From Clostridiales bacterium (lineage in GTDB: Bacteria; Bacillota; Clostridia; Lachnospirales; WQUN01), in contig JAITSQ010000025.1 in the NCBI GenBank assembly GCA_031287685.1, forward strand, positions 1-64,000: DNA of 64,000 nucleotides. Direction: 5' to 3'. Within the stretch, counting starts at the first letter, position 1, and every line of letters begins with the position of its first letter. The notes beneath the pieces were generated by a model. It was given only the letters and a program-made list of their open reading frames with translations, was not told the origin of the DNA and searched no databases. The position numbers were made by a program, and so were the translations under genes. Positions 16,777-18,844 of this stretch are shown here, piece after piece.

Positions 16777-16992
16777 ATGCCCGAATTTACTTGCAAACTC
16801 AAAGAATACCGTACCGGCGCGGGCCTTACCCAGGAGCGGCTTGGGGAAATGACGGGCGTGCGCCGGGAGACCATTATCAGGCTTGAGGCGGGGAAGTACA
16901 ACCCCTCGCTCAGGCTGGCCATAGACATTTCAAGGGCGGTCGGCGCGCCGATTGAGGAAATATTTATATTTCAGTATAGCAATTCCGTTTGA
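16777..16992 (+). CDS. XRE-family HTH transcriptional regulator
   Basis: The 71-residue single-domain DNA-binding protein has an HTH core LTQERLGEMTGVRRETIIRL (residues 17-36) typical of small Cro/CI-like regulators. Its last six residues (YSNSV with the preceding Q) and stop codon are read from the end of a MITE-like element, so the original C-terminus was replaced or trimmed by insertion. It probably binds the palindrome at 16371-16386. Confidence 0.9.
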   Translation: MPEFTCKLKEYRTGAGLTQERLGEMTGVRRETIIRLEAGKYNPSLRLAIDISRAVGAPIEEIFIFQYSNSV

Positions 16993-17123
16993 TATTGGCG
17001 TTCTTTCGCGCCGAAAACGCGTTGAAGCCGGTGTTTTTTCGGCACTAATGCCTGCCGAAAAAGCCACTTTCTTGCCCGCGATTTTCGGCTTGAACAACGC
17101 CAATCAAACATGGAATTGCTATA
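16975..17123. mobile_element. MITE-like element 1 (149 bp)
   Basis: The ends are TATAGCAATTCC and its complement GGAATTGCTATA, extended by GTTTGATATTGGCGTT on the left and the related AACGCCAATCAAACAT on the right. The outer TA on each side would fit a TA target duplication. The core contains a palindrome TTTTTTCGGCA/TGCCGAAAAA (17034-17062) of the dispersed repeat family. No coding capacity. Confidence 0.75.
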
Positions 17124-17124
17124 G

Positions 17125-17153
17125 TTGACAGACGGACCGGTATGTGTTAAAAT
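17125..17153 (+). promoter_or_regulatory. Promoter of the ABC-F leader
   Basis: TTGACA (17125-17130) and TAAAAT (17148-17153) with a 17-base spacer, directly abutting the MITE-like element. Confidence 0.8.
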
Positions 17154-17188
17154 AACAAAAATTATAAATTTACGGAGGCGCGCAGGGA

Positions 17189-17212
17189 ATGGAGATAATT
17201 TCTCGCAAATAG
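17189..17212 (+). CDS. Leader peptide MEIISRK of the ABC-F attenuator
   Basis: Seven codons plus stop, with GGAGG 10 bases upstream of the ATG. Its last codons (TCTCGCAA) form the 5' arm of an RNA hairpin, so a ribosome stalled here by an antibiotic would open that hairpin. This is the standard arrangement for ribosome-mediated attenuation of ABC-F resistance genes. Confidence 0.65.
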   Translation: MEIISRK

Positions 17213-17296
17213 TTCGATGTTATAATTGCGGGAAAAATCTGACGTTGTTTGCGTGCCTTTTTACTTAGGAGCCGCGGTTTTCCCGTGGCTTTTTTT
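17201..17296 (+). promoter_or_regulatory. Ribosome-mediated transcription attenuator
   Basis: Three mutually exclusive pairings are visible. Hairpin 1: TCTCGCAA (17201-17208) with TTGCGGGA (17226-17233). Antiterminator: CGGGAAAA (17229-17236) with TTTTCCCG (17278-17285), 8 of 8. Terminator: AGCCGCGG (17270-17277) with CCGTGGCT (17283-17290), then a T-run. Stalling in the leader peptide breaks hairpin 1, frees CGGGAAAA and disrupts the terminator. Confidence 0.75.
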
Positions 17297-17329
17297 CGTT
17301 TTTTTATCTTTATTAATTAGGAGAATTAT

Positions 17330-18844
17330 ATGTCTTTAATCAGCGTGCAAAACTTGACCTTTGCCTATGGCGGAGGGGAGCCGGTTTTCGATAACGTGAG
17401 TTTTCAGATTGACACGGACTGGCGGCTTGGCTTCGTCGGGCGCAACGGGCGCGGGAAGACGACTTTTTTGCGGATTCTGGCGGGGGAGCTTGAATACTCC
17501 GGGAAAATTTCCGCGAGCGTGAGTTTCGACTATTTTTCTTATAACGCCGATAGTTTCGCGCGGTGTTTTAAGTCGCCTGAAAAGAGTTATACAGCTCAAA
17601 GCCCTGTTCTTGGCGCAACGCGCCGGGTTCTGGCCGGGATAGCCCCGGAGGCGGAGAAATGGGAAATTGAGAGCGAAATATCGCGCATAGGGCTTGACGA
17701 GGAGGTTATGAGCCGGGATTTTGCCACCCTGTCCGGCGGGGAGAGGGTCAAGGCGATGCTTGCCGCTATGTTTTGCCGCCGGGGCGGGTTCCCGCTGATT
17801 GACGAGCCGACGAATCACCTTGATATGAACGGGCGCGCGGCTGCGGCTAGCTACCTGCGCGGCAAAAAAGGCTTCATATTAGTGTCGCATGACCGGGAAT
17901 TTCTGGACGGCTGCGTGACGCATATCTTGGCTGTTAATAAGGCCGGCGTCGAAGTTTCGCGCGGGAATTTCTCAACCTGGCGGGAGGACAAGGAGCGGCG
18001 GGATAATTTTGAGGAGGGGCGCAACCGCCGGTTGGAAAAGGACATAAAGCGGCTTGACGAGGCGAAAAAACGCGCGGCGGGATACAGCGGCGCGGCGGAG
18101 GCGTCCAAAATAGGGCAGGGGCCTTGCGACAGGGGTTTCGTGGGCCACAAGGCCGCCAAGCTGATGAATCGCGCCAAGAACGCGGAGCGCCGCCGGGAGC
18201 GGGAAATTGATGAAAAAGAGGGCCTGCTGAAAAACATAGAATACAGCCCGGATTTGAAAATAACCCAGGAGGAGTATCCAGCGCGGGTTTTGGTCTCTTT
18301 GCGGGGCGTGGCGGTGAATTATGGCGGCGCGGACGTGTGCTCGGGGGTGTCGTTTGAGATTGAGCGCGGCGACAGGATAAGCCTGCAAGGCGGCAACGGG
18401 AGCGGCAAGAGCAGCGTTATACGGCTGGTTTGCGGGTACGCCGCGGCGAGCGCCGGGGAAGCGCGCTTGGGCGGCGGGTTAAAAATTTCTTACGTAGGCC
18501 AGGAAACTTCAGACTTAAACGGGGATTTGGACGAATACGCGCGGGGTTTCGGGATTGATATAAGCCTGTTTAAGACGATTTTGCGCAAGCTGGATTTTGC
18601 GCGGGCGCAGTTTGACAAGCGGCTTGAGGACTTGAGCGAGGGGCAGAAGAAAAAGGTTGGCCTCGCCCGGAGCCTGTGCGAGCGGGCGCACCTGCACGTG
18701 TGGGACGAGCCGCTTAACTATGTGGACGTGCTGTCAAGAATACAGATAGAACGGATGATTATTGAATATAAACCGACGATGATTTTTGCGGAACACGACA
18801 AAATGTTTTGCGAAAAGGCGGGAAATAAAGTCGTAAAATTATGA
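17330..18844 (+). CDS. Lsa-type ABC-F ribosomal protection protein
   Basis: The 504-residue cytosolic protein has two ABC ATPase domains and no membrane domain. NBD1: Walker A GRNGRGKTT, signature LSGGERVK, Walker B LIDEPTNHLD. The inter-domain linker is long and charged. NBD2: GGNGSGKSS, LSEGQKKK, WDEPLNYVD. The GHKAAKLMNRAKNAERR linker and EPLNYVD form resemble the Lsa group, which displaces lincosamides, pleuromutilins and streptogramin A from the ribosome. The drug range is inferred. AGGAG precedes the ATG. The attenuated leader supports an antibiotic-inducible role. Confidence 0.92.
   Translation: MSLISVQNLTFAYGGGEPVFDNVSFQIDTDWRLGFVGRNGRGKTTFLRILAGELEYSGKISASVSFDYFSYNADSFARCFKSPEKSYTAQSPVLGATRRVLAGIAPEAEKWEIESEISRIGLDEEVMSRDFATLSGGERVKAMLAAMFCRRGGFPLIDEPTNHLDMNGRAAAASYLRGKKGFILVSHDREFLDGCVTHILAVNKAGVEVSRGNFSTWREDKERRDNFEEGRNRRLEKDIKRLDEAKKRAAGYSGAAEASKIGQGPCDRGFVGHKAAKLMNRAKNAERRREREIDEKEGLLKNIEYSPDLKITQEEYPARVLVSLRGVAVNYGGADVCSGVSFEIERGDRISLQGGNGSGKSSVIRLVCGYAAASAGEARLGGGLKISYVGQETSDLNGDLDEYARGFGIDISLFKTILRKLDFARAQFDKRLEDLSEGQKKKVGLARSLCERAHLHVWDEPLNYVDVLSRIQIERMIIEYKPTMIFAEHDKMFCEKAGNKVVKL

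Follow-up and report, generated by a model that had tools for sequence, protein, structure and literature searches.

Lincosamides, pleuromutilins and streptogramin A arrest ribosomes at the start codon of published ABC-F leaders, or close to it (PMC9226507, PMC10201436, PMC12421871). The precedents are VmlR (PMC9226507), CplR (PMC10201436) and TiaA/Are5sc (PMC12421871). For vmlR it was shown that a lincosamide or pleuromutilin stall at initiation frees the antiterminator strand (PMC9226507), and antitermination at cplR is likewise stall-dependent (PMC10201436).

In this study, a leader upstream of an Lsa-like ABC-F gene was analysed in a 64 kb window, the whole stretch of DNA examined. We consider it very probable that this leader is a ribosome-mediated transcription attenuator, turned on by a drug-held ribosome at the leader AUG. 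Our verdict is that it represents a real, compact and divergent case of the known ribosome-mediated attenuation of resistance ABC-F genes.

Leader elements and the Lsa-like gene

The region comprises the following features.

17125-17153, + strand: promoter TTGACA-17 bp-TAAAAT with extended -10 (TG before the -10), 11/12 consensus matches
17174-17178, + strand: Shine-Dalgarno site GGAGG of the leader ORF, 10 nt 5' of the leader ATG
17189-17212, + strand: leader ORF MEIISRK* (ATG GAG ATA ATT TCT CGC AAA TAG)
17199-17206, + strand: anti-antiterminator strand TTTCTCGC within the leader codons, pairs with 17228-17235
17226-17236, + strand: antiterminator 5' strand TTGCGGGAAAA, partner either the leader codons or the terminator loop/3' arm
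17248-17260, + strand: anti-Shine-Dalgarno strand, partner 17174-17186; if freed, part of it pairs with the terminator 5' arm
17267-17296, + strand: intrinsic terminator with T-run 17290-17296; stem core 17269-17277/17283-17291, terminator-like hairpin 17267-17293
17278-17288, + strand: antiterminator 3' strand TTTTCCCGTGG, formed by the terminator loop and 3' arm
17319-17323, + strand: Shine-Dalgarno site AGGAG of the ABC-F gene
17330-18844, + strand: Lsa-like ABC-F ribosomal-protection gene, 504 aa

The initial annotation had proposed a seven-codon leader (MEIISRK), a hairpin over its last codons, a perfect 8-base antiterminator pairing and a terminator with T-run; all of these are present within a few bases of where it had placed them. 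The hairpin, in which codons TTTCTCGC pair with GCGGGAAA (17228-17235) with one G-U, forms the inside of a longer stem that had been overlooked, whose outer part closes over the leader Shine-Dalgarno region (17174-17186 paired with 17248-17260). The antiterminator strand CGGGAAAA (17229-17236) is a perfect 8-bp complement of TTTTCCCG (17278-17285), and G-U pairs extend this helix to TTGCGGGAAAA/TTTTCCCGTGG. The codon/antiterminator and antiterminator/terminator pairings are mutually exclusive and overlap the upstream ORF (uORF), with marginal energetics of the stalled state. An Rfam scan of the window matched no family at the leader.

The DNA just upstream (16975-17123) is an imperfect palindrome, TATAGCAATTCC...GGAATTGCTATA, a dispersed repeat of MITE-like form for which the genome holds 86 matching pieces, with a possible TA target duplication. 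It provides the stop codon of an HTH ORF (16777-16992) and ends just 5' of the -35 box of the lsa promoter. Within it, all 10 nt of AAAAAGCCAC (17058-17067) are complementary to the terminator 3' arm (17285-17294); because it lies upstream of the promoter, this complementarity would possibly matter for read-through transcripts only, and is perhaps due to chance. An antiterminator reported inside the repeat by an automatic switch finder was rejected as false, the search there not having been restricted to the transcript.

The NCBIfam Lsa model NF000167 was by far the best model for the 504-aa product, matching over its full length with 611.8 bits, below the cut-off of 750. The product passed the ribosomal-protection-like ABC-F model NF000355 (410.4 bits, cut-off 380). 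The gene, annotated as Lsa-type, is thus better called Lsa-like, while its assignment to the ribosomal-protection ABC-F proteins stands. Its closest solved structure was Lsa(A) (7nhk, 380 bits). The DEP motif is kept in both ATPase domains, and the loop region of the ribosome-reaching domain is similar to that of the nearest relatives. No other Lsa-like gene was found in the 1.88 Mb genome. In a quick tree the protein sat on a long branch, grouped with weak support with Oscillospiraceae genes L001, L019, L024, L027, L059, L077 and L115. The predicted resistance spectrum is lincosamide, pleuromutilin and streptogramin A. From reading of their translations, we take the neighbouring genes to be SpoIVA-like, GAPDH and Prs, a context that suggests a spore-forming host within the Bacillota.

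Folding of the leader and the proposed mechanism

The leader RNA folded at -57.3 kcal/mol compared with -37.7 ± 4.1 kcal/mol in shuffles (z -4.8). The free RNA formed one long hairpin (17174-17260) and the terminator, with P(term) 0.99. Ribosome states were represented in all stall simulations by masked bases in an equilibrium fold. With a ribosome masked at the leader AUG, the antiterminator was ahead during transcription to 17284-17288 (-19.2 vs -16.0 kcal/mol at 17288). Once the terminator was complete, the antiterminator was behind by about 2 kcal/mol at equilibrium, with P(term) 0.86. The RNA folding check suggested in the initial annotation bore out the claimed fold of the free RNA, but at equilibrium the stalled state kept the terminator.

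Because the complete terminator beats the antiterminator at equilibrium even in the stalled state, the modelled switch must act during transcription, through kinetic, co-transcriptional folding, or it may be leaky or weak. The same calculations suggest a window antiterminator weaker than in several relatives and dependent on co-transcriptional folding. With the footprint at codon 4 or later, the Shine-Dalgarno stem reformed and P(term) was 0.99; folding favoured the antiterminator only with the footprint at the first codons.

In the proposed mechanism, without drug a ribosome would translate the seven-codon leader and leave. The leader would then fold into one long hairpin, with the strand 17226-17260 held by its Shine-Dalgarno region and last codons; the terminator would form and RNA polymerase would stop near 17296. 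A drug would hold the initiating ribosome at the leader AUG, covering about 17174-17205. The freed strand could then pair with the emerging terminator loop/3' arm and part of its 5' arm, the terminator would be pre-empted and the Lsa-like ribosome-protection gene would be transcribed. We infer that the leader is translated, that the ribosome stalls at its start codon and, as a prediction for this gene, that lincosamides, pleuromutilins and streptogramin A induce it.

The leader class at Lsa-family genes

Upstream regions were read for about 100 Lsa relatives, and 60 were parsed into one leader type. This leader consists of a short uORF (usually M..FSC* or M* alone), a middle hairpin, the strand GCAAGAAAGTTAC, the anti-Shine-Dalgarno sequence CACTC and the terminator GAGCTGCAAGAAAGTAACTTTCTTGCAGCTC. 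In the relatives, the terminator 3' arm is copied by the end of the uORF region (TTTCTTGC), and part of the 5' arm by the Shine-Dalgarno sequence GGAG. One downstream strand can therefore pair with the leader or, alternatively, with the terminator.

RNAalifold analysis of 33 leaders recovered the leader-Shine-Dalgarno stem, the codon/antiterminator helix and the terminator, with 14 of the 29 consensus pairs staying paired through changes on both sides. Pairing in the relatives reached 92% for the leader/anti-Shine-Dalgarno and codon helices, against 44-62% after sliding, and 91% for the antiterminator helices, against 39-51% after sliding. Double-sided changes exceeded column shuffles in both states, though, as the sequences are related, the shuffle comparison does not yield probabilities. 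In the aligned set the codon helix hardly varied; variation appeared in Oscillospiraceae leaders, for example GCTTCCTGC/GCGGGAAA/TTCCCGC in L019. Alignment A2, which holds reverse-strand chance matches, was excluded from the results.

The covariance model R1 was built from relatives without the window. In 92 related genomes, nine of its ten matches at E <= 0.001 lay directly upstream of an lsa gene. R1 also matched the leader of plasmid lsa(E) of Enterococcus faecalis (NZ_OM574793, L180; 109.7 bits) and that of a plasmid lsa gene of Paenibacillus urinalis (142.3 bits). As judged from sequence, this leader class is common to Lsa-family genes across Bacillota, transferable lsa(E) included. Within an incomplete coverage of the literature, we found neither ATG-stop leaders nor this type of Lsa leader described, and an earlier description is possible.

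Several loci depart from this layout. The same-family genomes L118, L127, L119, L122 and L124 carry another leader type with the uORF ATG-TAG or MIR*; in L118, L124 and L127 a terminator-like hairpin takes in the Shine-Dalgarno site of the main gene. The uORF MRVNSCR* of L115 adjoins the lsa gene (upstream of 1501) with no terminator between them, an arrangement suggestive of a deleted attenuator. In L180 (lsa(E), 541-700), L034, L058 and L120, the stretch from the terminator to the lsa gene contains a second possible short ORF with its own Shine-Dalgarno site.

When R1 was run on the 64 kb window, the leader described here was the best match, aligned end to end, the ATG and the codon strand both falling in register, at a weak 14.4 bits (E 0.31). 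The E-value was 0.0048 when the search was limited to 1 kb. In the whole 1.9 Mb host genome R1 found no match, the window included, its match being too weak at that size. Model R2, made from mixed divergent relatives without the terminator (a poor alignment with only 6 base pairs), matched the window more weakly than R1 (E 1.6). Compared with the usual length for the class, the window leader lacks about 75 nt, and in place of the middle hairpin between the uORF and antiterminator strand it has only a short loop. The distance from the ATG to the pairing codon strand is 11 nt, compared with 9-14 nt in 59 of 60 relatives. MEIISRK* aligns gap-free with MRIFSCK* (L059) and MRVNSCR* (L115), and the TGC codon common in the relatives' leaders is CGC here, the other two strands being changed to match. 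We take the window leader as a divergent member of the Lsa leader class, chiefly because of its architecture and register and less because of its score.

ATG-stop leader ORFs, in which the start codon is directly followed by a stop, were found in 31 of the 60 parsed relatives (TAA 18, TAG 7, TGA 6), mostly Paenibacillaceae. The loci are as follows.

First part: L003-L007, L009-L011, L013-L015, L017, L020, L022, L023, L028, L029
Second part: L039-L044, L047, L054, L056, L060, L062, L064, L065, L067

Their Shine-Dalgarno spacing is often long (12-13 nt), and initiation at these leaders is therefore still putative. Since so many leaders are ATG-stop, with all three stop codons in use, the signal is probably the position of the ribosome and not the peptide sequence. 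The TTCTTGC stretch stays conserved in these leaders though untranslated, which argues for selection on the RNA strand and ribosome position, not on the peptide. A simulated start-codon stall lowered P(term) from 0.95-0.99 to 0.00 in L052, L005 and L120 and from 0.68 to 0.00 in L032, and largely flipped L055 and L046; L078, L058 and L001 kept the terminator, and L061 and L129 were mis-parsed. The initial annotation had placed the stall within the leader; the stall model was retained, but the position is more precisely the start codon, given that half of the parsed relatives are ATG-stop and the window folding depends on a footprint at the first codons. We give even odds to a broader proposal, that at many Lsa-family genes the ribosome sensor is reduced to its minimum, a start codon and an immediately adjoining stop, where an antibiotic flips the RNA by trapping a single initiating ribosome. 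The window leader would then be a compact coding version, its peptide a by-product of RNA pairing.

Alternative readings and comparison with known leaders

Fortuitous complementarity between a short transcript and the ordinary terminator that follows it was assessed with 5000 dinucleotide shuffles of 17160-17266, each compared with the unshuffled terminator loop/3' arm. In 87 shuffles there was an antiterminator with 8 or more Watson-Crick pairs, but only four also had the 8-bp hairpin strand, and the full arrangement, with the strand inside a Shine-Dalgarno-preceded ORF, appeared in just one. Leaders of lsa genes across Bacillota show this arrangement again, and such conservation disfavours chance strongly, making it highly improbable. 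More serious, though still unlikely, is a degenerate attenuator, descended from a working switch whose antiterminator was weakened by compaction and which now only limits expression, with little induction. The missing middle hairpin and spacer, the terminator kept in the stalled state by equilibrium folding, the weak covariance-model score and the long tree branch of the protein are all consistent with decay. However, all three strands have changed together (TTTCTCGC/GCGGGAAA/TTTTCCCG vs TTTCTTGC/GCAAGAAA/TTTCTTGC), which drift would not preserve, and the second contact, between the anti-Shine-Dalgarno strand and the terminator 5' arm, is also kept.

The remaining alternatives concern what the leader senses. 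Leaders of erm genes work by drug-dependent nascent-peptide stalling. MsrDL is a resistance leader of the same kind (PMC10314930), and MEIISRK could similarly arrest the ribosome during elongation with a drug such as a macrolide. We regard this as improbable: the peptides of the class are not conserved beyond what RNA pairing explains, a nascent chain is impossible in the start-stop forms, and a footprint at codon 4 or later leaves the terminator in place. Least probable of all is sensing of charged-tRNA shortage (Cys in the relatives, Arg here). Many relatives' leaders do have a Cys codon directly before the stop, but the ATG-stop leaders encode only fMet and keep TTCTTGC untranslated, the window leader has no Cys codon, and the downstream gene is one for ABC-F resistance, not for amino acids. 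The best reading remains the one first annotated, a leader-ORF attenuator before an ABC-F gene of the Lsa kind, its architecture being conserved at Lsa-family genes of other genera and at plasmid lsa(E).

The start-codon attenuator predicts inducing drug classes for an uncharacterised Lsa-like gene and ties its leader to that of lsa(E), a resistance gene that is transferable. Should drugs switch lsa(E) and its relatives, susceptibility tests done without induction could understate resistance. Natural start-stop leaders offer a direct test of whether the position of the ribosome is enough for initiation inhibitors to be sensed, with no nascent peptide involved.

Among the described systems, the vmlR leader of Bacillus subtilis (uORF MIN) shares with the window a uORF inside the anti-antiterminator hairpin and a terminator upstream of an ARE ABC-F gene; it differs in a hairpin sequestering the Shine-Dalgarno site of the main gene and a NusG pause hairpin, neither seen in the window (PMC9226507). 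The two ABC-F proteins belong to different subfamilies, and the likeness described here is one of architecture. In the cplR leader of Clostridioides difficile (uORF MRI), a 5' hairpin also sequesters the uORF and a terminator follows, but its stem includes the Shine-Dalgarno site of the main gene, which in the window lies outside the terminator (PMC10201436). The LsaA uORF of Enterococcus faecalis is also a short uORF upstream of an Lsa gene; compared by peptide alone, its consensus MAGN is unlike the MxxFSC and ATG-stop leaders (PMC10201436). The lsa(E) leader belongs to the same class as the window leader, with the uORF MYNFSC*, the strands TTTCTTGC/GCAAGAAAG/TTTCTTGC and a terminator before an Lsa-family gene. 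It differs in having about 160 nt between terminator and gene, with the second possible short ORF within. The window leader, shorter than that of lsa(E) by about 75 nt, has its three strands changed to TTTCTCGC/GCGGGAAA/TTTTCCCG.
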